From a virus, in the IMG/VR virus record IMGVR_UViG_3300036795_000442, positions 1-36,886 of that record: a DNA stretch of 36,886 bases; one strand, written 5' to 3'. Position numbers and translations under genes: made by a program. The notes below the pieces were generated by a model. The model was not told the origin of the DNA and did no database searches. It saw only the letters and a list, made by a program, of their open reading frames with translations. This document shows, in pieces, positions 663-32,127 of this stretch. How positions within the stretch are numbered: the first letter of the stretch is position 1; every line of letters begins with the position of its first letter.

Positions 663-833
663 TTAGCTCTTCGTCAGCAGAACGATCTGGAACGCCTCGA
701 CAGAGACCGTGTCGAGAGGGGCGCCCGGGAGGTCCGTGGCGAGGGCGAAGCGTTGGACGCGTACTGTGACCTCGTCGCGGTCGCGCGCGGGCGGGAGGTC
801 GTTCAGAACGTCGCGAAGCTCTTGCACGGTCAC
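663..833 (-). CDS. small conserved-type phage protein (56 aa)
   Basis: This small acidic/basic protein has 56 residues. It starts TVQELRDVLNDLPP and continues with a short beta-like segment (EVTVRVQ). The opening resembles small phage and bacterial proteins with an xxVxELxxxLxxLPxDxxV pattern; their function is unknown to me. The start is GTG at 833, overlapping the integrase stop as GTGA, which implies translational coupling. A second in-frame GTG lies two codons later. It sits between integrase and the HNH gene in the leftward operon. No catalytic or metal-binding residues are apparent. Confidence 0.6.
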   Translation of the reverse strand: MTVQELRDVLNDLPPARDRDEVTVRVQRFALATDLPGAPLDTVSVEAFQIVLLTKS

Positions 834-2155
834 AGCGCCAGGCCTTCCCGCTTCGCCCACGCTTCCAGCTTGGCGGCGTCCTCGAGGGCGGCTTCGTCCA
901 GCAGGGTGAGGTAGTGCTGGCGCAGGATGTCGTCGCGATCGTTGGGGGCGTGGCCGGTCCAGCCGGGGATGCGGTCCAGGTCGACGTCGGCGAGGTAAAG
1001 GCGGGTGACGCAGGTGTCGCGGCTGTCGGCCACGTGCTTGGGCTGGAAGCTCTCCAGGCCGCCGTCCAGCAGGTAGGCCGCCTTGGCCTCGCGGAAGCGC
1101 CCGCCGAGGCTGGCGGTGTCGTGGCGGCGCTGGGTGGCCGGGTTCCACAGGAACGGCGTCGGGCCGAGCGGCTTGACGGTCGCGGCCGCGGCGTCGCGGG
1201 CGCGGCGATCGACGCGGGCCTGCACCCGCGGCAGGATGCCGGGCACCGCCTCGCGGCCGCGGCGCTTGCCCTTGTTGGGGACGAAGCGCCAGGTGCGGCC
1301 CTGCAGCGTGGCGAGGTCGACGGCGCACAGGTCGTGCGGCCGGGCGCCGGTCCACAGGCCGAGGGTGAGGCCGTCGCCGACGTCGGCGAAGCCGTGGGCG
1401 TCGCACCAGGGCGTGAAGCTCAGCTCCTCGGCCACGGTGATGATGATGCGCCGGCCCGGGTTGGACTGCCGGCCGAGCTTGGTGGCCGGGCTCTCGCCGA
1501 TCCACCCCTGCCAGCTGGCCCAGCGCAGCAAGGCGCCCATCGCGCCGATCGCCAGGTTGCCGACGCCGACGCTGTCCTGCTTGTACATCTCGACCAGCCA
1601 GCTGCGCAGCGCCGGCCGATCGATCTCCGCCACCGCGCCGGAGAACTTGCGCAGGATCCTGGTGGACATGGTGCGGTAGTTCTTCCGGGTCGCGTCGGAG
1701 ATCTCCACCAGGCCGGCGTCGACGTCGGCGAAGTAGCCGTCGACCATGGCCTGTACGGTGCGCCGCGCCGGCGGCGGCTTCATCGCCGGCGCGGCCTCGC
1801 CGAGGCGCGCGTGCGCCAGCTGCACCAGGTCGTCGACCAGGCTGCGGCGGAGGCGGTCGCCGGCGTCCTTCGCCGGCGGCATGGCTTCGAGCGTGGCCCG
1901 CAGCGCCTGGCGCGCCTCGTCGCCGACCACGCCCGGCTCGGCCGCCTCGCGCACCAGCTTGGCCCACAGCGCCCGGGCGTCGGCCGCGGCGATCGCCGCG
2001 CCGCGCTCGAGCCAGGCGCCGGCCTCGTCCTTCAGGTCGACGCCCTTGATGCCGGCCTTGCGCGCCGCCGGCGACGGCTCCCAGCGCGGCCGGCCGTCGC
2101 GGAACTTCAGCCCGTTGCGGAGCGAGGGCATGACGGGGCGACGCGGGCGGGCCAT
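830..2155 (-). CDS. int: tyrosine-family site-specific integrase
   Basis: This 441-residue protein would catalyse prophage integration and, with a directionality factor, excision. The C-terminal catalytic domain has Arg272 in a TGARPHD motif, a lysine-rich beta-turn (Lys295/Lys297), Arg379, His402 in WTGH, and the nucleophile Tyr415 in RQHY. The usual His of the HxxR box is not in register: Ala376 stands three before Arg379 and the nearest histidine is His374. An SAM-like core-binding domain lies around residues 130-220. I chose ATG 2155 because GAGAGGA lies six bases upstream; the open frame extends further but without protein-like sequence. It lies downstream of an AlpA/Xis-like gene, the normal int-xis neighbourhood. 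Confidence 0.93.
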   Translation of the reverse strand: MARPRRPVMPSLRNGLKFRDGRPRWEPSPAARKAGIKGVDLKDEAGAWLERGAAIAAADARALWAKLVREAAEPGVVGDEARQALRATLEAMPPAKDAGDRLRRSLVDDLVQLAHARLGEAAPAMKPPPARRTVQAMVDGYFADVDAGLVEISDATRKNYRTMSTRILRKFSGAVAEIDRPALRSWLVEMYKQDSVGVGNLAIGAMGALLRWASWQGWIGESPATKLGRQSNPGRRIIITVAEELSFTPWCDAHGFADVGDGLTLGLWTGARPHDLCAVDLATLQGRTWRFVPNKGKRRGREAVPGILPRVQARVDRRARDAAAATVKPLGPTPFLWNPATQRRHDTASLGGRFREAKAAYLLDGGLESFQPKHVADSRDTCVTRLYLADVDLDRIPGWTGHAPNDRDDILRQHYLTLLDEAALEDAAKLEAWAKREGLAL

Positions 2156-3386: not shown

Positions 3387-3700
3387 CGCCGGCGCTCCCG
3401 CGGCGGCAGGGTGACGATCGGCTGCGCCTGCAGCCGCCGCCGCAGCGCGCGCCCGGCGTAGAAGCGGGCGGCGCTGAGGTCCTCCCGCGGCGCGACGGCG
3501 GCGCCGGCCACGCCGGCGCGGAAGGCGTCGCGGTCCATGGAGCGCAGGCGGATGTCCTGCAGCCAGAGGAAGCCGGCCATCTGGCGCTTGAACCGCTGCA
3601 GGTTCACCTCGAGGCGGGCGTACAGCTCGTCGGTGTCGGCGTCGGCCGGCAGCGGCGCCGGGCGCGTGAACGGAAACGGGAACACGTTGCTGCGGCTCAT
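3383..3700 (-). CDS. hypothetical phage protein (105 aa)
   Basis: This 105-residue protein belongs to no family I recognise. A short unstructured N-terminus with a FPFPF cluster is followed by a mainly helical, arginine-rich body (a YARLEVNLQRFKRQ helix, then WLQDIRLRSMDRDAF). The C-terminus is very basic (RRRLQAQ ... PRERRR). Basic charge and helicity would suit nucleic-acid binding, but no motif proves it. It begins at ATG 3700, four bases inside the end of the GapR-like gene, so it is probably translated from the same message. Confidence 0.6.
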   Translation of the reverse strand: MSRSNVFPFPFTRPAPLPADADTDELYARLEVNLQRFKRQMAGFLWLQDIRLRSMDRDAFRAGVAGAAVAPREDLSAARFYAGRALRRRLQAQPIVTLPPRERRR

Positions 3701-3954
3701 GCGCCCGCCTCCGCCACCGCCCGCTCGTAGAGGTCGAGCAGCTCGCCCTCCTCGCGGACCGCGTCGCGGCTCTGCTTGCGCCGCTTGACCAGGGCCTTGA
3801 AGGTTTTGGCGTCGAAGCCGTTCGACCGCAGCTGGCCCAGGATGCCCGCCAGGCTCTCGTCAATCCCGGCCTTCTCGCTCTCCAGCCGCTCGTAGCTTTC
3901 GAGCAGCTGTTTCAGCAGCGGACTGCCTTTCGGCGTGTTGGGTTGATCGGACAT
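3697..3954 (-). CDS. GapR/DUF2312-family nucleoid-associated protein
   Basis: This 85-residue protein matches the GapR (DUF2312) pattern. An N-terminal coiled-coil helix (LKQLLESYERLESEKAGI, 13-31) is followed by the hallmark NGFDAKTFKALVKRRKQ segment at 45-61 and a C-terminal helix EEGELLDLYERA. In Caulobacter, GapR is a tetrameric clamp that binds over-twisted, AT-rich DNA ahead of replication and transcription machinery. This copy has a shorter N-terminal region than some chromosomal members. ATG 3954 is preceded by GGAGGGAC at ideal spacing, so the longer open frame (from 4020) is not the start. It is the first gene behind the leftward promoter, with an operator between promoter and start. 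Confidence 0.85.
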   Translation of the reverse strand: MSDQPNTPKGSPLLKQLLESYERLESEKAGIDESLAGILGQLRSNGFDAKTFKALVKRRKQSRDAVREEGELLDLYERAVAEAGA

Positions 3955-4072: not shown

Positions 4073-4324
4073 ATGACGGGTTGGGTGGTGGCGCAGCCGA
4101 GAAACGACGCGCAGGATTTGGCGGAGTTTGCGCCGGGCTCCCCGCCCGCACCTAACCCGTGGCAGGATGCGGTTGATGTTTCGGTGGCCTACGGGCCGGC
4201 GATCGCCTTGGCCGTGGTGGCGATCGGAGTCTGTCTCTTCGTCGATCGGCCTAGCGCCGCAAGATCACGGCGTGAACCGCCTTCACGCTGGCGCCTTCGA
4301 CCGAGAATTCCTCGGGCGGATTGA
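4073..4324 (+). CDS. small membrane protein with N-terminus resembling the 26323 virion protein
   Basis: This 83-residue protein reads rightward between the leftward promoter and the repressor, overlapping the last 74 bases of the convergent repressor gene. Residues about 10-30 (RNDAQDLAEFAPGSPPAPNPW) closely resemble residues 9-30 of the large internal virion protein at 26323 (RDDAQDLQDFNPGTPPAPVPF). The relation is also visible in DNA, for example a shared CGACGCGCAGGAT. A transmembrane helix follows (AYGPAIALAVVAIGVCLFV, about 39-57), then a basic tail. GGAGAG lies nine bases before the ATG. Function is unknown. It could be a remnant of a duplicated gene end, or a membrane-anchored mimic used in the lysogen. 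Confidence 0.5.
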   Translation: MTGWVVAQPRNDAQDLAEFAPGSPPAPNPWQDAVDVSVAYGPAIALAVVAIGVCLFVDRPSAARSRREPPSRWRLRPRIPRAD

Positions 4325-4805
4325 ACTGGGCCAGGTGCACCTTGCCGTCGCGCATGCCGCGGTATTGCTTCACCAGGGCCGTGCCGTCGCGCAGCTCCAC
4401 GACGCAGTCGCCAAAGCGCGCCGGCGGGATTTTGCGGGCGACGATCACGGTTTCGCCTGAGTAGAGGCGCGGCTCCATGCTGTCGCCGGCGACACGCACG
4501 CCGAACGGCTCGCCTTTGACGAGGCCGGCCGGAATCTCCAACTCGTCCAGCACGTCGTTCGCGGCGAGCGATATCCGCTCGTCGCCGCCGGCGGCGGCAT
4601 AGCCGTACACCGGGATGCGGATCATCTCGGGTTCGCGAGCGCCCGAGAAGAACGCCTCGACCTGCTGCGCCTCTGACGGGGGCAGCTCCTTGTCGCTGCG
4701 GATCAGCCGGCCGACCGAGTGGATGGACCTGTGAAGGTGACTGGCCAGGGCGGTGTTCGTCCTGCCCTCGCGCCGCAAGCGCTCGCCAATGTCCGTCCCA
4801 CGCAT
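4251..4805 (-). CDS. S24/LexA-family (CI-like) prophage repressor
   Basis: This 184-residue lysogeny repressor has an N-terminal DNA-binding region at about residues 1-55 (a divergent HTH, from DIGERLRREG to IHSVGRLIRS). A C-terminal S24 peptidase/dimerisation domain follows. It contains the expected self-cleavage bond Ala72-Gly73 in AAAGG, the nucleophile Ser109 in AGDSM, and the general-base Lys146 in ALVKQY, so RecA-stimulated cleavage during SOS induction is expected. I place the start at ATG 4805; an upstream in-frame ATG at 4862 would add 19 residues overlapping the operators. No strong ribosome-binding site precedes 4805. It faces the rightward early operon across a control region with matching palindromes. 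Confidence 0.92.
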   Translation of the reverse strand: MRGTDIGERLRREGRTNTALASHLHRSIHSVGRLIRSDKELPPSEAQQVEAFFSGAREPEMIRIPVYGYAAAGGDERISLAANDVLDELEIPAGLVKGEPFGVRVAGDSMEPRLYSGETVIVARKIPPARFGDCVVELRDGTALVKQYRGMRDGKVHLAQFNPPEEFSVEGASVKAVHAVILRR

Positions 4806-22972: not shown

Positions 22973-23559
22973 TGGCTGAAATGGTCACCACCCTGTTCGC
23001 CACGCTGGGCGCGAGCGGCGCCGCCGCCGGCGGCTCCAGCCTCGGCGGCGCGATGGCCGCCAGCGGCGCCGCCGCGGCCGGCGCCTCGGCCGCCGGCGCC
23101 AGCGCCCTCACCGCGCTCAGCGCCGGGACGTCGATGATCTCCGGCCTCTCGGCCTACGCCCAGGGGCGCCAGCAGGCGCAGGCGCTCGAGGACCAGGCGG
23201 CGAGCGAGCGCATGGCCGCCACCGGCGAGCTGACCGACGCCCAGCAGAAGGCGACGGCGATCCAGAACCAGTACAACCAGGTCGTGGCCGACCAGTTCGC
23301 CGTCGCCTCGGCCTCCGGCTACGACGTCTCGTCCGGCTCCGTGGTCGCGGCGCGCCAGTTCGCCCAGACCCAGGCCGACACGCAGATCAGCATCGTGCAG
23401 AACGGCGGCCAGATGAACGCCGCGCTGCGCCGCGCGCGCGCCTGGCAGGACCAGAACGCGGCCTCGCTGGCGACGGAGAGCGGCGCGATCACCGCCGTCC
23501 AGAAGGTCGCCCAGGGCCTGTTCGACATGGCCAGCATCGGCGGCGGCTCGGGAGCCTGA
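22972..23559 (+). CDS. internal virion protein, T7 gp14-like
   Basis: This 195-residue protein is Ala/Gly/Ser-rich over the first 60 residues, with a hydrophobic stretch that could insert into a membrane. A helical region follows (MISGLSAYAQGRQQAQALED, and NQVVADQFAVASASGYDVSSGS). The SGYDVSSGS turn followed by a long Gln-rich helix is typical of the small internal core protein of podoviruses (gp14-type), which is ejected first into the outer membrane during infection. It starts by TGATG overlap and ends four bases before the next gene. Confidence 0.75.
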   Translation: MAEMVTTLFATLGASGAAAGGSSLGGAMAASGAAAAGASAAGASALTALSAGTSMISGLSAYAQGRQQAQALEDQAASERMAATGELTDAQQKATAIQNQYNQVVADQFAVASASGYDVSSGSVVAARQFAQTQADTQISIVQNGGQMNAALRRARAWQDQNAASLATESGAITAVQKVAQGLFDMASIGGGSGA

Positions 23560-23563
23560 CGCC

Positions 23564-26323
23564 ATGCCGAACTTTTCGAGCGAGAGCTCCGGTCTCAACT
23601 TCCCGCGGCTGAACGTCGGCGACCAGGTCTCGCCCGATCCCGTGCCGCTGGCCACGTCCGGGAACGCCGGCGCGCTGGCGGAGATCTCCAACGCGGCCGA
23701 CAGCTTCGGCAAGAGCCTCACCGACCTGGCCACCCGGGCGGCGCAGAGCTCGGCGCGCGCCCAGGCCACGGCCGACGCCACCGGGGCCGGCGCGACCGGC
23801 GCCCTGACGCCGCAGAGCGACATGACCGTGTGGGGCCAGACCTACAACGAGATCGCCAAGCAGCAGCTCGGCGTGCAGCGCCAGGCCGCGCTGCGGACCT
23901 CGATGGCGCAAGCCTACGTCGACAACCAGGACGATCCGGGCGCGCTGAACAAGGCGCTGACCGACATCCAGTCCGGCTTCGGCACCACGGGCTTCGCCGA
24001 CCTCGACGCCAGCCTGGCCACCGACGCGGCGGCCCAGCGCGGCGACTACATGACCCGCGCGGCGTCGGCCCTGCGAGATCGCGCCATCGCCCAAGGCAAA
24101 GCCAACTTCGCCGACACGCTGGCGCTCGGCCTCTCCACCCTGACGCAGACCGCCAGCGGGGCGAGTTTCGACGACGCCGGTTCGACCCGCGTCACCGGTG
24201 CCTACGCCAACCTGGTGCAGAACCTGTCGAAGTACGGCCCGAAAGAGGCCTTCGACGTCGCCGGCCTCCACTTCGACGCCGATCCGACGCGCCTTGGCGC
24301 GCTCGACGCCTCCGACATCGAGAACGTCGCCGTGGGCGCCAATCGCGAAGCGAAGACCGCGTGGATCCTCGGCGCCGCCCAGCGGCTGCCGGACGCCGCG
24401 GCCAAGCAGCAGTTCGTGACCGACCTGCGCAACCGCTACGCCATCGGCGACCCGATCTTCTCCGGCGTGGACGGCAAGAGCGCTGAGACCCTGTTCGATC
24501 ACCTCGACGACGAGGCGAACAAGACCCACACCGCCGAGGCCGCGCAGCGCGAGTTGCACATTCACAACGTCAACAGCGCGATCGGCGCGCTGAGGTACGG
24601 AGCCGACGCCGACATTCCGACCATGCTGGCCGAGGCGAAGGCGTCCGACGATCCTGAGACGATCGCGGCGGCTGACTTCTGGTCGCAGGTTCCCCAGGCG
24701 ACGCGCGGCGTCTTGCGGACCGTCGTCGCGCGCTCGTTCGGGTTGATCCCGGAGCCGGGTGAAGGCATCCCGACGCAGGCCTTGGACCCGAACGGCGTGC
24801 CGATCGGGCCGGCGTTCAGCACCGCGCCGGGCGCGAACGTGCCGCCGCCGACGCTCGGCACCCGGGCGCAGCGCAACAACAACCCGGGCAACCTGACCAA
24901 CCTCGGCGGCGGCCGGCTGTGGCCGGGGCAGACCGGGACCGACGGCCGCTTCGCCATCTTCGGGACCCAGGCGGCGGGCGCCGCCGCGGCCGACCAGAAC
25001 CTGGTCGCCAAGCAGACCCAGCACGGCCTCTCGACGCTGACCCAGATCATCGGCGACCCGCAGCACGGCTGGGCGCCGGCGGCGGACGGCAACAACCCGG
25101 CCGCCTACGCCGCCGCGGTCGGCCGCGCCGCCGGCGTCGACCCGAACGCGCCGATCGACCTAGTCCACGACACGGCCCTGCGGCATCGGGTGCTGACGGC
25201 GATGTTCGGCGTCGAGAGCGGCGGCTCCGGCGCGGCGGCCGCTGCGCCGGCGCCGGCCGCGAACCCGTGGTCGCCACCAGCCGGCGTGCAGCCCGGCTCG
25301 CCGGCGGCCTACGCCTGGGCCAACACCCTGCCGGACTTCACCGCCGACCCAGTGCGCTTCGCCCAGGCCAAGGGGATCGCGAATGTGCCGCCGCTGATGC
25401 CGCAGGCCGGCTTCAGCGATCCGGCCTCGGCTGAAGCGTCGCAGTTCGCGAACGTCGTCCAGCAGCGCTGGGGCATCGCGAAGACGGTGAGCGCCAAGTA
25501 CCTTGTCCCGCAGCGCCTCTTCACCGACGCCGAGCGCGACACCCTGAAGGGCGTCCTGGCGCAGGACCCCGGCAACGCGGTCGCGCTGGCGCGCAACCTG
25601 CAGGGCGCTCTCGGCAATGACGGCGCCTCCCAGGCGCTGCGCGAGCTGGGCGAAAGCGGCCCCGACGTGCTCACCCAGTTGCATCTCGCCGACCTCGTCG
25701 TGCAGGGCGGCCAGAATAATCTCGTCAGCTCAGCCCTGGACGGCATGCGGCTGCGCGGCGAGGGCGCTGAAATTCCCAAGTGGGCGGCGCCCGGAACGAT
25801 GGGCCACGTGCGCGACTTCGACGACGTCACCCGCCAGTACGGCGCGGCGTTCCAGTACCACCCCGACGCGCTGCAGGCGATCCGCAACGTCGCCGAGGAC
25901 GCGCGCGTCTCGGACCTTCACAAAGGGCTTTCGCAGTCGCCCGACTACTACATGCAGCACGCTGCCGGCGGCACCGACCGCGGCCAGTTCGGCGCGTTCG
26001 GCGGCTTCTGGGATGTCAACGGCCGCGCCGCCTTGTTGCCTTCCTGGTTGCGCCAGGACTCGATGCCGCAGGCGCTGGAGACCCTCGGCCACGGCTGGGC
26101 GTTGACCTCGAGCGGACCGGTCCACGCCAATGGCCAGCCGTATCGGCCGGACGAACTTGGCAACATGCAGGTCGTCAGCCGGCCGGGCGGCGCCTACTGG
26201 CTCACCGATCCGAAGACCAACCAGGTGCTGCGCCGTCGCGACGGCTCGGCCTTCGAGCTCAATATGGACGACAACACCCGTCGCGCCCTCGCGGTCTCGA
26301 TGCCCAACCAGGTGCTGCACTGA
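23564..26323 (+). CDS. large internal virion protein with P5-type lytic domain
   Basis: This protein has 919 residues. Residues about 435-530 contain RNNNPGNLTNLGGGRLWPGQ, then GRFAIFGTQAAGAAAAD, QIIGDPQHGWAPAADGNNPA and AAYAAAVGRAAG. That is the pattern of structural protein P5-like muralytic domains, which help phages open the cell wall during DNA entry. Flanking regions are long helical segments as in ejection (core) proteins. By order (gp14-like, this, two more giants) it fits T7 gp15/gp16-type ejectosome components. The ATG lies four bases after the previous stop. Substrate bond specificity cannot be read from the sequence. Confidence 0.8.
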   Translation: MPNFSSESSGLNFPRLNVGDQVSPDPVPLATSGNAGALAEISNAADSFGKSLTDLATRAAQSSARAQATADATGAGATGALTPQSDMTVWGQTYNEIAKQQLGVQRQAALRTSMAQAYVDNQDDPGALNKALTDIQSGFGTTGFADLDASLATDAAAQRGDYMTRAASALRDRAIAQGKANFADTLALGLSTLTQTASGASFDDAGSTRVTGAYANLVQNLSKYGPKEAFDVAGLHFDADPTRLGALDASDIENVAVGANREAKTAWILGAAQRLPDAAAKQQFVTDLRNRYAIGDPIFSGVDGKSAETLFDHLDDEANKTHTAEAAQRELHIHNVNSAIGALRYGADADIPTMLAEAKASDDPETIAAADFWSQVPQATRGVLRTVVARSFGLIPEPGEGIPTQALDPNGVPIGPAFSTAPGANVPPPTLGTRAQRNNNPGNLTNLGGGRLWPGQTGTDGRFAIFGTQAAGAAAADQNLVAKQTQHGLSTLTQIIGDPQHGWAPAADGNNPAAYAAAVGRAAGVDPNAPIDLVHDTALRHRVLTAMFGVESGGSGAAAAAPAPAANPWSPPAGVQPGSPAAYAWANTLPDFTADPVRFAQAKGIANVPPLMPQAGFSDPASAEASQFANVVQQRWGIAKTVSAKYLVPQRLFTDAERDTLKGVLAQDPGNAVALARNLQGALGNDGASQALRELGESGPDVLTQLHLADLVVQGGQNNLVSSALDGMRLRGEGAEIPKWAAPGTMGHVRDFDDVTRQYGAAFQYHPDALQAIRNVAEDARVSDLHKGLSQSPDYYMQHAAGGTDRGQFGAFGGFWDVNGRAALLPSWLRQDSMPQALETLGHGWALTSSGPVHANGQPYRPDELGNMQVVSRPGGAYWLTDPKTNQVLRRRDGSAFELNMDDNTRRALAVSMPNQVLH

Positions 26324-28677
26324 TGCCCGGCTTCGCGGTCGATCGCCCACGCGACGACGCGCAGGATCTGCAGGACTTCAACCCGGGCACCCCGCCCGCG
26401 CCGGTTCCGTTCTGGGACTCGGTGTCGCAAAACTACGACAACTCGGTCACCAACGGCCGGCTGGGCGCGCGCGAGGACATGCTCGCCGAGGCGTTCGAGC
26501 AGCGGCACGAGCTGGTGGAGCAGCGGCTGGGTCAGAAGTTCGATTTCCCGGACGGGGTCTATCCCGGCATGTCGGAGGCGCCCCCCGGGCTGCTGGTGTC
26601 TCAGCTCGAGCTCGGCGGCGCGGGCGACGAGCCGCAGATCGCCGCTTACCGGCAGAAGTATCCGCAGCTGATGGCGGACATCCCGACCGCCGACCAGGTG
26701 CGCCAGTCGGTCGACGCCAGGCTGCAGGCGATCTCGCAGCGCGCCGGCCTGGCGTCGTCGCAGCATCCCGTCGGCGGTGTCCTCGGCAGCCTCGGCGGCG
26801 GCCTCACCGACCCCACCAACATCGCCCTCGGCCTCGCCACCGGCGGCATCGGCGACGGCGGCCCGCTGCTGGCGCGCATGGCGCTGCAGTCGGCGCTGTG
26901 GGGCGGCCTGGCGGCGGCCCAGGCTCCTGCCCGGGCGGCGGAGGCGCAGATGGTCGGCGGCGCGCCCTACGGGGCGCCGGAGGCCCTGCAGGACGTCGCC
27001 GGCGGCCTCGCGGCGGGGCCGATCTTCGAGGGCGGCGGAGCGCTGGTGAAGGCGGCGCTGCGGCCGATCCTCGGCCGGCTGTTCGACGCCTCGTTCCCCG
27101 CCGCCGAACAGATCGTGCGCGACACGCTGGCGGCCGATCCGGTGGCGCGCGGCGCGGCGATGAGCCTGGACGCCTCGGCCCGCGACGCCGCGGCCGTGGG
27201 GCCGCTGCGCGACGGCGGCGACTTCGACGCCGGAACCTACGCGCTGCAGGCCGACCAGCCGCCGCCGATGCCGGAGCCGAACGCGGACGTGGCGGACCTG
27301 TTCGCCGACCCGGCGCCGGCCTCGCCGCAGCTGGCGGACGCGGCGCAGCGGATCACGGACCCCAACGGCGCGCAGCTCTACGACGCCACCGAGTACCGCG
27401 GCCGGCCGATCTACGCCGGCCGCTTCGACCCGGGCCAGGTCGCCACGGCGCCGGAGACCTTCCAGTACAAGGCCGGCGGCGACGGCGCCGGCGTCACCGA
27501 CCGGCTGCGCGGCGTGCAGGCGTGGGACCCGGCCAGCTCCGGCAAGACCATCGTCTTCCAGGACCCGAGCGGCCAGCTGACGATCGCCGACGGACACCAG
27601 CGGCTGGCGCTGGCGCAGCGGCTGCAGCGCCAGGGCTTCGCGCCGACCCTCGACGGCCTGCTGTTCCGCCAGCAGGACGGCTGGAGCCCCGCCGAGGTCC
27701 GCACGATCGCGGCGCTGAAGAACATTAAGGAAGGCGCCGGCAGCGCGCTCGACGCGGCCAAGGTGTTCCGGGACGCGCCGGCCGCGCTGAACGACGACAG
27801 CCTGCCGGTGTCCGGGACCCTCATCCGGCAGGCGAAGGGATTGGCGCGGCTTTCGCCCGACGCGTTCGGGGCCGTGGTCAACAAGGTCATCTCCGAGCCT
27901 TACGGCGCGGCGATCGGCGGGCTCGCCGGCGCGCGGCCCGACCTGCACATGGGCCTGGTGCGGCTGCTGCACGCCGGCGAGCCCGCCAACCTCGACGAAG
28001 CCCACGCGCTGATCCGCGAAGCTCTAGTCGACGACTGGGTGCACCAGCAGGGCGCCGAAGGCGATCTCTTCGGCCACACCTCCATGCAGAGCCTGGCGAT
28101 CGGGCGCGCGAAGCTGAAGGCGTTCATCGTGCGCAGCCTGAAGGGCGATGCGCGGATCTACCAGCAACTGGTGAGGCACGCCGATGCCATCGAGGCCGGC
28201 GGCAACGTGCTCGCGCGCGACGCCAACGAGGCGGCGCTGGCGGTCGACCAGGCGGCGCTGGAGATCGTCACCAAGCTCGGCATGCGGGTCGGCCCGATCG
28301 GCGACGCCATGAACGAAGCCGCCCACGCGATCACCGACGGCGCGCGGCCGGCGGACGCCGGCAAGGGCGTGCTCGCCCGCATCCGTGGTGCGATCCAGCG
28401 CGGCGAGCGCCTCGACCTCGGCCGCGCCCAGCAGCTGGACCCGGCGCCGCCGAGCGAGAACGCGCAGGCCAAGGCCGAGGCTTTCGCCGAGCCGGCCGGC
28501 AAGGGGCAGCTGGCCCAGGTCACGCCGAAGCCGGAGGAGGCCACCGGTGAGCGCGTTGAGCCGGGGACGGAGGCGCCGCGAACGTCGGCGCTGCCGGCGG
28601 ACGATCTCTTCGGCCTGATCGAGGACGACAGACGCCCCGCGGCCGCGCTAGAGGAGTTGAGGGGATGCGCACCGTGA
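26323..28677 (+). CDS. large virion/ejection protein with ParB-like domain
   Basis: This 784-residue protein starts by TGATG overlap. Its first 30 residues (with DDAQDLQDFNPGTPPAPVPF) recur in the small membrane protein at 4073. A Gly/Ala-rich region (about 145-250) may be membrane-active. Residues about 405-432 (IVFQDPSGQLTIADGHQRLALAQRL) match the core of ParB/Srx-like domains, as in DdrB-like proteins associated with phage-delivered defence functions. A helical domain follows, and an acidic tail ends ADDLFGLIEDDRRPA. It is probably packaged and ejected with DNA; whether the ParB-like domain acts on DNA or nucleotides is unknown. Confidence 0.75.
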   Translation: MPGFAVDRPRDDAQDLQDFNPGTPPAPVPFWDSVSQNYDNSVTNGRLGAREDMLAEAFEQRHELVEQRLGQKFDFPDGVYPGMSEAPPGLLVSQLELGGAGDEPQIAAYRQKYPQLMADIPTADQVRQSVDARLQAISQRAGLASSQHPVGGVLGSLGGGLTDPTNIALGLATGGIGDGGPLLARMALQSALWGGLAAAQAPARAAEAQMVGGAPYGAPEALQDVAGGLAAGPIFEGGGALVKAALRPILGRLFDASFPAAEQIVRDTLAADPVARGAAMSLDASARDAAAVGPLRDGGDFDAGTYALQADQPPPMPEPNADVADLFADPAPASPQLADAAQRITDPNGAQLYDATEYRGRPIYAGRFDPGQVATAPETFQYKAGGDGAGVTDRLRGVQAWDPASSGKTIVFQDPSGQLTIADGHQRLALAQRLQRQGFAPTLDGLLFRQQDGWSPAEVRTIAALKNIKEGAGSALDAAKVFRDAPAALNDDSLPVSGTLIRQAKGLARLSPDAFGAVVNKVISEPYGAAIGGLAGARPDLHMGLVRLLHAGEPANLDEAHALIREALVDDWVHQQGAEGDLFGHTSMQSLAIGRAKLKAFIVRSLKGDARIYQQLVRHADAIEAGGNVLARDANEAALAVDQAALEIVTKLGMRVGPIGDAMNEAAHAITDGARPADAGKGVLARIRGAIQRGERLDLGRAQQLDPAPPSENAQAKAEAFAEPAGKGQLAQVTPKPEEATGERVEPGTEAPRTSALPADDLFGLIEDDRRPAAALEELRGCAP

Positions 28678-29162
28678 GCGACGACTTCTGGGCTCAGGTC
28701 GACCGCTCAGCCGGGCCGGGCGGCTGCTGGCCGTGGCTGCGGCGTAAGCAGAAGGGCGGCTATGGCCAGCTGCACACCGCCCTGTTCGGCCGGCCTCGCA
28801 CCCAGCTAACGCACGTCGTGGCGTTCTTTCTCCACTTCGGCTGGCAGCCGTGCAGGGCCAACGGTCTGGTGGTGCGCCATACCTGCGACAACCCTCCCTG
28901 CTGCAACCCCGCACATCTGGTGTCGGGAACGCAAAAGCAAAACGTCCGCGACGCGATCGAGCGCGGAAGGATGCGGCCGGAGCACAAGGCGCGGCCCGGG
29001 GCGGGCAACGGGCGCGCCAAGCTCGATGACCAGAAGGTCGCGGAGATACGGGCGCGGCTGACCGCGGGCGAGCCACGTCGAGCCTTGCGGCAAGAATTCG
29101 GCATAGGGGCCAGCGTAATGTCGCGCATCGCGCGTCGCGAGAGCTGGGACCACGTCGCGTAG
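28665..29162 (+). CDS. HNH homing-type endonuclease
   Basis: This protein has 165 residues. The HNH core includes His72 (VVRHTCDNPPCCNPAHLVSG), a Cys-rich zinc site (Cys74, Cys79, Cys80) and His84, followed by a QNVRDAIERGR helix. The C-terminal 45 residues (KLDDQKVAEIRARLTAG then a REFGIGASVMSRIARRESW helix pair) are a resolvase-like HTH that would provide DNA specificity. Such genes are usually freestanding homing endonucleases and selfish. It overlaps the previous gene by 13 bases and interrupts the run of ejection-protein genes. GAGGAG lies upstream of the ATG. Confidence 0.9.
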   Translation: MRTVSDDFWAQVDRSAGPGGCWPWLRRKQKGGYGQLHTALFGRPRTQLTHVVAFFLHFGWQPCRANGLVVRHTCDNPPCCNPAHLVSGTQKQNVRDAIERGRMRPEHKARPGAGNGRAKLDDQKVAEIRARLTAGEPRRALRQEFGIGASVMSRIARRESWDHVA

Positions 29163-29409: not shown

Positions 29410-32127
29410 ATGCCAAACAGCTTCAAAGACTGCATCGTGGACGGCGTCGCCAAGGGTGCGATCGACCCCGAGACCGGCGACGCGGTGATGAAAGCCTACC
29501 AGAACGCCTACGCTGACGCAGAGGCTACGCTGGGCCATGCCGAGGCGGACCGGCAGGCTGGCGCGGCGGTGATGGACGCGCTGGAGAAGGCGAAGATCGA
29601 GGCGCGCCGGCGGCAGGTGCTGCAGGTGCGCAGCCGGCGCGGGTTTCTGGACGACGTCGCCGATCTGAAGCGCCGTCGCGGCTACACGAACGTGCCCGAG
29701 CTGGCGGGCTCCGGCGGCAAGCCGCCGCCGGGCGGCCGCGAGGGCTGGACCCAGGGCGGCGAGCCGCCGAAGGACGGGCCGCTGAAGTCGGGCGCGGTCG
29801 CCGCACGCTCGCTCGTGCTGCTGATGCGCAACAAGGCCGGGCTCTCCGGCAAGGCCGGCGTCAGCGCCGAAGGCCAGTCGATGGCCGTGCGCGGAATGTT
29901 CGACGCCCAGATGGCCGACCTGATGGAGAAGTTCGAGACCCACACGGGCTTCGACAGCCCCAACCGCGCGCTGTTGGACAACGTCGGCCGCGAGGGCTTC
30001 GGCGAAGCCAGCGGCGACCGCGCGGCCAAGGAACTGAACACGGCGTGGCAGGGCACGGCGGAGCTGGCCCGGCAGATGTTCAACGGCGAAGGCGGCCAGA
30101 TCGGCAAGCTGGAAGGCTGGGGCTTTCCGCAGAGCCATGACGCCGCCGCCATCTGGCGCGCCGGCAAGGATCAGTGGGTCGGCTTCACCGCCAAGCTGCT
30201 GAAGCGCGGCGCGATGGTCGACAAGCTGACCGGCGCGCCGTTCACGCCCGAGCGGCTGACCGCGCCGGACGGCATACTGTCGCAAATCTACGACAGGATC
30301 ACCACCCACGGCCTGATCGACGCTTATCCGCCGGAGCACCCGGGCGCCGGCGCGCTGGCGCTGAGCCGCGGCGAGGAGCGGTTCCTGAGGTTCGACGGCT
30401 GGGACGCGTGGAAGACGTACCAGCGCCAGTTCGGGCAGGGCGACCTCTTCGCCGCGATGATGGGCCACCTCGACGGCATGGCCCAGGATATCGGCCTGAT
30501 GCGCGCGCTGGGGCCGAACCCGGCGGCCGAGTGGCGCTGGCGGGTGGCGTTCGCGCAGCGCGAGGCCGCGCTCGAGCGCAGCCTCTCCCGCACCGAAGCG
30601 GCGGTGCGCGAGGCCAACAGATACGTCAAGCGCGCCCAGGACATGTACGACCACTTCACCGGGGGCGCCTCGATGCCGGTGAACGACAAGTTGGCGGCGT
30701 TCGGCTCGGGCGTGCGCAACTACCTCAACGGCGTCGACCTCGGCTCGGCGATCCTCAGCGACATGCCCTCGGCACCGATGTTCGGGGCGCTGGCCCGCAG
30801 CTTCATGGGCGTCAAGTTCCAGGGCGACATGGGCCAGCTGGCGGCGCTGCTGGCGGACCCCGGGATGCGGGCGATCGCCCGGCGCTCCGGCTTCATCAAC
30901 GAAGTGGCGCGCGACGGGCTGATCGGGGTGACGCAGGACACCATCCGCACGATGACGGCCGGTGAGCGGACGGTGCAGGGCATGAACGGCTTCGCCCGCC
31001 GGCTGCCGGCGTCGGTGATGCGGCTGCAAGCGCTGACCGGCATGTTCGAGGCGCGGCGCCGCTCTTGGCGGATGACGTTCATGGGCGCGCTGGCGGACGC
31101 GGCGCTGAAGGATCTGCCGGCGCTGGCAAACGGCAGCGGCCAGGAGCGCGCGCTGGCGGCCGAGTTGGACCGCCGCGGCTTCACCAACGCCGACTGGGAG
31201 CAGGTGCGCCAGGTGACCCCGTGGCGGCCGCGGGCCGGCGTCTATTTCCTACGTCCACAGGACATCGCGCGGGAAGCGAACCTCGACCTCGGGCTGCGCG
31301 TCGGGGAAATGGCGCTCAATGCCGAACAATATGCGATCCCGGTTTCGGGGTCGCTGTGGACGCGCGCGCGGCTGCTGGGCCAGCTGCCGCCGGGCACGCC
31401 GGAAGGCGAGCTCGCGCGCAGCTTCACCATGTTCAAGACCTTCTCGATCAACACGGCCTACCAGTACGCCGAAGAGATCTACCTCCGCGGCGTCGAGAAC
31501 GTCTGGGACCGCTGGAACTTCATTCCGCCGGCGCTGAAGCCTGCGGCCTTCCACGCGTGGCTCGGCGCCTGGGCTGCGGGCGTGGTGGGCGCCTTGACCC
31601 TGGCCGGCGGGGTGACGCTGCAGATGCGCCAGCTGGTCAACGGCAAGGACCCGCTGCCGATGAACACGCCGCAGTTCTGGGGCGCGGCGATGCTGCAGGG
31701 CGGCGGCCTCGGCATCCTGGGGGACTTCTTCTACGCGCGGACCGCGCGCAACGAGAAGTCAGCGCCGATCGCGGCGATCGGCCCCACCGGTCAACTCCTC
31801 TCCGATGCGTTCGACCTCACGGCCGGCGAGGTCGGCGACCTCGCCACCGCGTCCCAGCACCCGAAGCGCCATGACGCCGAGGCGGCGCGCATCGCTCACG
31901 ACCTCACGGCCTATATGCCGGGCGCGTCGCTGTGGTGGGCGCGCACGGCCTACGACCGCATGATCATCGACCAGCTCGAGCAGCGGATGGACCCGGACGC
32001 CAAGCGCCGCTTCGCGCGGGCGGCGCGCGAGGCGCAGACCGAGACCGGGGCCGGCGCCTGGTGGCCACGCGGCAGCGCCCTGCCGACGCGCGCGCCGGAC
32101 TTCTCGCGGATCCTCGGGGGACAGTAG
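29410..32127 (+). CDS. very large internal virion (ejection) protein, gp16-like position
   Basis: This protein has 905 residues. The first 100 residues are charged helix (PNSFKDCIVDGVAKGAIDPE, then KIEARRRQVLQ). The rest is a long, mostly helical body with amphipathic segments, including MRLQALTGMFEARRRSWRM and FKTFSINTAYQYAEEIYLRG. A hydrophobic stretch at about 720-740 (AWLGAWAAGVVGALTLAGGV) may cross the host membrane. Length, position after other core proteins and before the fibre genes, and helical make-up fit the largest ejectosome subunit of podoviruses. I see no catalytic motif. The ATG lacks a ribosome-binding site and is preceded by the GTTGCC element. Confidence 0.75.
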   Translation: MPNSFKDCIVDGVAKGAIDPETGDAVMKAYQNAYADAEATLGHAEADRQAGAAVMDALEKAKIEARRRQVLQVRSRRGFLDDVADLKRRRGYTNVPELAGSGGKPPPGGREGWTQGGEPPKDGPLKSGAVAARSLVLLMRNKAGLSGKAGVSAEGQSMAVRGMFDAQMADLMEKFETHTGFDSPNRALLDNVGREGFGEASGDRAAKELNTAWQGTAELARQMFNGEGGQIGKLEGWGFPQSHDAAAIWRAGKDQWVGFTAKLLKRGAMVDKLTGAPFTPERLTAPDGILSQIYDRITTHGLIDAYPPEHPGAGALALSRGEERFLRFDGWDAWKTYQRQFGQGDLFAAMMGHLDGMAQDIGLMRALGPNPAAEWRWRVAFAQREAALERSLSRTEAAVREANRYVKRAQDMYDHFTGGASMPVNDKLAAFGSGVRNYLNGVDLGSAILSDMPSAPMFGALARSFMGVKFQGDMGQLAALLADPGMRAIARRSGFINEVARDGLIGVTQDTIRTMTAGERTVQGMNGFARRLPASVMRLQALTGMFEARRRSWRMTFMGALADAALKDLPALANGSGQERALAAELDRRGFTNADWEQVRQVTPWRPRAGVYFLRPQDIAREANLDLGLRVGEMALNAEQYAIPVSGSLWTRARLLGQLPPGTPEGELARSFTMFKTFSINTAYQYAEEIYLRGVENVWDRWNFIPPALKPAAFHAWLGAWAAGVVGALTLAGGVTLQMRQLVNGKDPLPMNTPQFWGAAMLQGGGLGILGDFFYARTARNEKSAPIAAIGPTGQLLSDAFDLTAGEVGDLATASQHPKRHDAEAARIAHDLTAYMPGASLWWARTAYDRMIIDQLEQRMDPDAKRRFARAAREAQTETGAGAWWPRGSALPTRAPDFSRILGGQ

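Follow-up and report, generated by a model that had tools for sequence, protein, structure and literature searches.

We analyzed a 36,886-base stretch of DNA (the window), which is the whole of the IMG/VR virus record IMGVR_UViG_3300036795_000442 and belongs to a temperate short-tailed phage with an S24 repressor, a GapR-like protein, a large terminase, a portal and an ejection cluster. Beside the repressor gene lies a small open reading frame (ORF), P0001, whose product begins with a copy of the N-terminal tail of ej2, a large virion protein of the same phage, and continues into a predicted membrane helix. Judged by sequence, this arrangement recurs with different peptides in two other prophages, and in all three cases the tail matches the ej2 of its own phage best. 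We predict that P0001 acts as a decoy in superinfection exclusion and owes its specificity to the tail copied from the phage's own ej2, and we give this function an even chance of being correct. The features on which the argument turns are these:

4073..4324, plus strand: P0001, ORF for an 83-residue protein with an ej2-like N-tail, one membrane helix and an arginine-rich C-tail
4073..4174, plus strand: P0001 codons 1-34, the copied ej2 N-terminus (20 of 34 residues identical)
4184..4240, plus strand: predicted membrane helix of P0001, residues 38-56 (mean Kyte-Doolittle 2.32)
4241..4321, plus strand: C-tail of P0001, predicted to be cytoplasmic (net charge +7 over the 25 residues after the helix)
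4251..4805, minus strand: S24/CI-type repressor, convergent with P0001 (Peptidase_S24, 6.5e-12; PHROG transcriptional repressor)
3697..3954, minus strand: GapR-like DNA-binding protein, the boundary of the slot that holds P0001 (PF10073, 1.7e-17)
26323..28677, plus strand: ej2, a 784-residue putative internal or ejected virion protein, positional counterpart of epsilon15 gp16
26323..26424, plus strand: ej2 codons 1-34, the variable tail, whose end is the AP[VIT]PF[WF]D helix start of close relatives

Translation of P0001 gives MTGWVVAQPRNDAQDLAEFAPGSPPAPNPWQDAVDVSVAYGPAIALAVVAIGVCLFVDRPSAARSRREPPSRWRLRPRIPRAD, and the N-terminus of ej2 is MPGFAVDRPRDDAQDLQDFNPGTPPAPVPFWDSV. The identities fall in an ungapped alignment that starts at Met 1 of both proteins, and past residue 34 the two have little or nothing in common. 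A first-pass annotation of the window had noticed this shared segment and placed its start at residues 9-10; the segment is real but runs from Met 1 to residue 34, and the membrane anchor that was said to follow it is present. When P0001 was compared by blastp with the six-frame translation of the window, the match to ej2 had an E value of 5e-11 without SEG filtering and 1.5e-9 with SEG and composition correction, and none of 5,000 shuffles reached its score. The annotation had also raised the objection that the segment could be a common low-complexity pattern. This is not what we found. Searches of 390 Caulobacteraceae genomes with P0001 returned background only (28 of 390 at E ≤ 0.01), the best match having an E value of 4e-4 and 22 bits compared with 34 bits for the P0001-ej2 pair of the window, and none of the collected viral contigs matched a degenerate DNA pattern for D.QDL..F.PG.PP.P exactly. 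P0001 matched no family in Pfam or PHROGs, and a search of 50,697 phage records with an E cutoff of 10 gave nothing. Scans of viral contigs with single-protein patterns (P0001, P0002 and the major capsid protein) gave no close relatives, and neither did a two-row ej3 alignment scan. An apparent P0001 match in the relative G144 (E 4.6e-5) lies inside a 653-codon open frame, not in a small ORF, and was judged to be chance.

The DNA of the two segments is identical at 66 of 102 bases, whereas the amino acids alone predict 69.3 ± 2.6. The same codon is used at 9 of the 19 identical residues other than Met and Trp, with 12.0 expected if codon choice were independent. Synonymous sites are saturated while the peptides are alike. 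Because the DNA identity equals the expectation from independent codon choice, the likeness in DNA on which the annotation had also drawn is not independent evidence and adds nothing to the peptide match. This combination speaks against a recent duplication at the DNA level and, given the strong match at both N-termini, indicates that the peptide similarity was either kept or arose at the protein level. We consider it highly improbable that P0001 is neutral debris, that is, a partial duplication of the ej2 5' end that by chance stayed open and ran into a hydrophobic stretch. Debris of this kind would fit the absence of P0001 from close relatives and its poor codon usage. It would not be expected to keep 20 of 34 residues despite saturated synonymous sites, to share nothing with ej2 beyond the tail, or to have counterparts in two other prophages that occupy the same slot and have the same anatomy but different peptides.

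From its gene order, ej2 is probably an internal, ejected virion protein. The window has the gene order of an epsilon15-like ejection cluster, in which two tail genes are followed by those for a small internal protein and for gp15-, gp16- and gp17-like proteins. The last four of these genes are:

22981..23559, plus strand: small internal virion protein of 192 residues, gp14-like by position (phrog_418, weak, E 0.0038)
23564..26323, plus strand: ej1, an ejection-cluster protein with a segment labelled endolysin/tape-measure, epsilon15 gp15 by position
26323..28677, plus strand: ej2, as above
29410..32127, plus strand: ej3, of the virion structural protein family of epsilon15/phiV10 gp17 (phrog_684, 2e-112 on the 938-residue reading from 29311)

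Order and families agree with the gp13-gp17 positions of epsilon15 and phiV10 and also with SI2, which is why we take ej2 as internal and probably ejected. The likeness of ej2 to gp16 of epsilon15 and phiV10 is positional only, both lying between gp15-like and gp17-like proteins. Of ej2 and ej3, only ej3 matches phiV10 by sequence, phiV10 with its gp17-like protein being among the ej3 tblastn matches. The SI2 record (NC_023841, L004) is named 'Dunaliella viridis virus SI2' and has an algal host label, yet its gene set is that of a tailed phage like the one in the window, and the host label looks wrong.

In close relatives, ej2 starts with a variable tail of about 25 residues followed by AP[VIT]PF[WF]D in seven of eight aligned members; the ej2 of L006 departs from this and has APRPLVD. 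AlphaFold modelled ej2 poorly (mean predicted local distance difference test score 55.7), with low confidence over residues 1-24 and a helix from residue 30, and the tail is perhaps disordered. As a comparison, the far N-terminus of the T7 conduit protein gp15 is described as mobile and is believed to join gp14 once ejection has taken place (PMC8954989). L039 and L041, both Brevundimonas phages, have the same 31 residues at the start of ej2 (MSIRFRSVRRDQPRQTDDVAPAIAAPVPFWD) and diverge strongly right after them, so the tail behaves as a module. Further along, the conserved core of ej2 (residues ~365-680, window 27415-28360) recurs in many other viral contigs and, in Ruegeria phage 45A6, within a very large protein. 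Its ADGHQR motif, reminiscent of ParB/sulfiredoxin-like domains, has no Pfam match.

The region beside the repressor is a usual place for genes that are expressed in the lysogen. P0001 occupies the slot between the 3' end of the S24-type repressor gene and the GapR-like gene, and its own 3' end (4251-4324) overlaps the repressor gene 3' end on the opposite strand. We compared this slot among relatives found by scanning viral contigs with an ej2 alignment (72 loci) and genome contigs with an ej3 alignment (14 loci), sets that were chosen for carrying an ej3 or ej2 homologue and are mostly from Alphaproteobacteria. A repressor was detected by tblastn in 25 of the 36 phages examined, and at least 12 of these 25 have small membrane proteins in the slot between the repressor and the GapR or Xis gene; in the remaining 13 no slot membrane protein could be called with confidence. 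The proteins include those of G143 (133 residues), G146 (150), G147 (157) and G148 (134) as well as those of G787, G010, G260, G240, G011, G1068 and G509. Those compared are mostly unrelated to each other, with G147 and G148 being related (38% over 78 residues). Repressor and slot gene converge in the window, G143, G146, G147, G148 and G260; in G787 and G010 they share a strand, with the slot gene 3' of the repressor. The place of P0001 is, then, a recurrent site for membrane proteins. Seven of the slot proteins, those of G010, G787 and G260 among them, had no match in PHROGs. The annotation's further objection, that the ORF might be disrupted in relatives, does not apply because the relatives examined carry unrelated slot proteins and no broken copies. 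The G147 and G148 slot proteins share an SGLP[FT]WKL motif, and PFW in the latter recalls APVPFWD of the G148 ej2, which may be chance.

The annotation had proposed searching other prophages for membrane proteins next to the repressor that match their own ejection protein, and such proteins were found in G010 and G787. A within-set screen of small against large frames in 20 sets gave an ej2-tail partner in three (G009, G010 and the window). Repeating the screen on 19 further sets yielded no such partner at E < 1e-3, and G787 emerged from a more sensitive tblastn with 16 ej2 tails. In G010, an Altererythrobacter metagenome-assembled genome, the slot ORF (L169:15724-15930) encodes 68 residues with the tail HHRFQRN...PAADTR as in its own ej2, followed by one helix (mean hydropathy 2.86) and an RRIKI end. 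This gene is preceded by an XRE repressor gene, on the same strand, and by an ORF with two helices. In G787, a sphingomonad prophage, the slot protein has 159 residues with three transmembrane segments after the tail, and its gene is directly behind the repressor; its tail is LSTMTPRQDQT...PSENAPTADTRD compared with LSTLTRRQDQT...PSAIGGDTRD in its own ej2. We set aside small/large pairs that lacked ej2 or a membrane segment, these being antisense frames, paralogues and N-termini of other large proteins. Eight known records (phiV10, BcepC6B, P22, epsilon15, Sf6, MPK9, MT835534 and BPP-1) contained no ej2-tail pair. Small ORFs without a helix share N-terminal parts of large proteins in the IMG/VR pairs L195/L196 and L203/L204.

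As a control for specificity, the tails of all membrane ORFs of 40-260 residues in the 36 phages (405 tails) were each scored against the 36 ej2 N-termini, with ej2 starts set by hand from operon spacing. G002 and G006 were represented by the near-identical IMG/VR records G148 and G146; outside the matrix were the Brevundimonas ASV9 prophage (where the contig ends), G640 and G067 (truncated) and 10 IMG/VR records without a defined ej2 start. The highest scores of tails against their own ej2 were 110 (window), 72 (G010), 57 (G787) and 42 (G260), then 36 and lower, so that exactly three of the 36 phages reach 57 or more. Among 14,175 non-own pairs the top score was 58, for P0001 against the homologous ej2 of G143; three reached 50 and 52 reached 40. 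The tails of the window, G010 and G787 each rank their own ej2 first of 36, with next-best scores of 58, 32 and 44, respectively. None of 20,000 shuffles reached the score of G010, and none of 20,000 that of G787. The three tail peptides differ from each other, and all three genes adjoin the repressor. The convergent slot gene of the Caulobacteraceae prophage G260 encodes MPTNFALAEAYPPRPEAP, compared with MSQFAVAATVTPREEAP in its own ej2. This case is suggestive only, because 57 of 20,000 shuffles, with the ORF started at an internal ATG, reach its score and its own ej2 ranks second of 36.

The partner in G009, a Rhodomicrobium prophage, is of another kind. It is a 51-residue ORF without a helix (L014:6545-6733, plus strand) that repeats the ej2 N-terminus at 61% over 36 residues, and it could be a virion peptide or a remnant. 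Since it lies directly upstream of ej2 in the virion cluster, it lends some weight to a role in the virion or its assembly, in which the tail would be a docking peptide and the small proteins would join or regulate the particle rather than exclude other phages. The conserved aromatic-acidic end of the ej2 tail in close relatives (AP.PFWD) suggests a docking site and would suit this role as well. We nonetheless consider it unlikely, as the genes of the window, G010 and G787 adjoin the repressor outside the late operon, those of G010 and G787 being on the repressor's strand, and all three proteins have membrane helices, for which a peptide inside the capsid would have no use. The tail is also absent from the other large proteins of the window in a six-frame search, which weakens the annotation's alternative of a sorting tag; the Rhodomicrobium copy in the virion operon, having no transmembrane segment, speaks in its favor.

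We used the positive-inside rule to predict membrane topology. The charges of the N-tail and of the 25 residues after the first helix are -4 and +7 in the window (-4 being the net charge of the whole P0001 N-tail), +1 and +3 in G010, -7 and +3 in G787, and -2 and +5 in G260. Because this pattern fits the rule, the tails of all four should, by charge alone, face the periplasm with the C-terminal side in the cytoplasm. Short-tailed phages span the periplasm with a conduit made of their ejected proteins, and the best interpretation of an ejection-protein tail anchored there is a decoy on the tail's docking site. P0001 would be a lysogeny-module protein of the inner membrane, expressed in the lysogen, that exposes the copied ej2 tail of its own phage on the periplasmic side. 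When a related phage injects, its ej2 and partner proteins would have to assemble the conduit; the anchored copy would occupy the docking site of the ej2 tail, be it on another ejection protein, the portal or nozzle, or a host membrane protein, and the incoming DNA would be kept from entering. In more general form, temperate short-tailed phages may build self-specific entry blockers from the tail of their own ejection protein, anchored in the inner membrane and facing the periplasm, with each lineage copying its own tail and the tail being an essential docking site. We hold this broader proposal tentatively, at somewhat below an even chance. If it is true, exclusion would take its specificity from self-mimicry and could keep pace as the ejection protein changes, and the tail would mark an essential docking site in the DNA-entry machine.

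A copied tail in the periplasm might instead shield the phage's own ej2 from a neighboring exclusion protein or a host sensor. The model for such self-protection is P22 Esc, which protects against SieB, and in the P22 annotation sieB and esc overlap in one frame. The second small membrane ORF between the repressor and the mimic in G010 would be in keeping with this. The slots of the window and G787 have no second gene between repressor and mimic, and the mimic would need to act in the periplasm; we regard self-protection as quite unlikely.

Several observations weigh against P0001 being an exclusion decoy. Its codon usage is unlike that of the phage, it scores poorly as coding sequence under a codon model of the phage, and no sigma-70-like promoter was found upstream of it. 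No homologue was found in the Caulobacteraceae genomes, phage records and viral contigs searched. The closest relative by ej2 (G143, 52%) carries a different slot membrane protein, and G145-G148 carry either a different one or nothing recognizable. Self-matching is clear in only three of the 36 phages screened, and the Rhodomicrobium copy is outside the slot and without a membrane segment. The ejection of ej2 is deduced from gene order. Finally, self-exclusion needs heteroimmune phages that share ej2 tails, as the repressor already gives immunity. The suggestion in the annotation that a lysogen could use such a mimic to interfere with incoming related virions is thus supported in part: the own-matching peptides of G010 and G787 fit it, and most relatives have none.

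P22 SieA is described as an inner-membrane protein that blocks DNA entry, with escape mutations in the ejection proteins gp16 and gp20 (PMC10883804). Like SieA, P0001 belongs to a short-tailed temperate phage and would act in the inner membrane, its predicted location, at the stage of DNA entry. With a gene beside the repressor and one predicted helix, P0001 may be, as SieA-type proteins are, an inner-membrane protein encoded among lysogeny genes. Similarity to SieA in size, together with 2-4 predicted helices, is seen in the slot proteins of some relatives. P0001 has half the length of SieA and one helix, it is not in the SieA family by PHROGs or of the SieA type by similarity, and no segment of SieA copied from an ejection protein was seen in the P22 record. 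The locations also differ, sieA being in the mnt/arc/ant region and not beside c2, whereas P0001 adjoins the repressor. P0001 could still exclude phages in the ordinary SieA-like way, its tail being no more than a convenient N-terminal extension acquired from the phage's own genes, with no role in docking. The slot is often occupied by membrane proteins without a copied tail, as this would predict. We think it very unlikely, given that the tail makes up about half of the window and G010 proteins, which have a single helix and little else, and that three prophages show own-best matching.

HK97 gp15, TP-J34 Ltp and Tuc2009 Sie2009 are prophage-encoded, membrane-associated proteins (Ltp is a lipoprotein) that block DNA injection, and changes in the tape-measure protein overcome Ltp and HK97 gp15 (PMC10883804). 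Compared by description only, they differ from P0001 in coming from long-tailed phages, and the source's account of them does not describe them as copies of the target's tail. A self-copied ejection-protein tail was not found described in the open-licence PubMed Central literature, as far as the texts searched go. If our decoy reading is right, the mode of action would be like that of SieA, HK97 gp15 and Ltp. The authors of the SieA paper remark that it is hard to see how interactions persist given the diversity of SieA and of ejection proteins (PMC10883804). If a phage made its decoy out of its own ejection protein, membrane exclusion proteins would have a simple specificity rule, and the tail of about 30 residues would be indicated as a docking site needed for DNA entry.

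The remaining features concern other genes of the window. The portal was named by its resemblance to annotated head-tail connectors. One further gene was named:

830..2131, minus strand: putative integrase, without a Pfam match, conserved in G143 and G145

This gene is called a putative integrase by its position. An HNH endonuclease gene (28665-29162) lies between ej2 and ej3 in the virion operon. A GapR-like gene (PF10073) is a regular member of the lysogeny region in these phages, being present in the window, G143, G148, G010, G787, G240, G260 and others.
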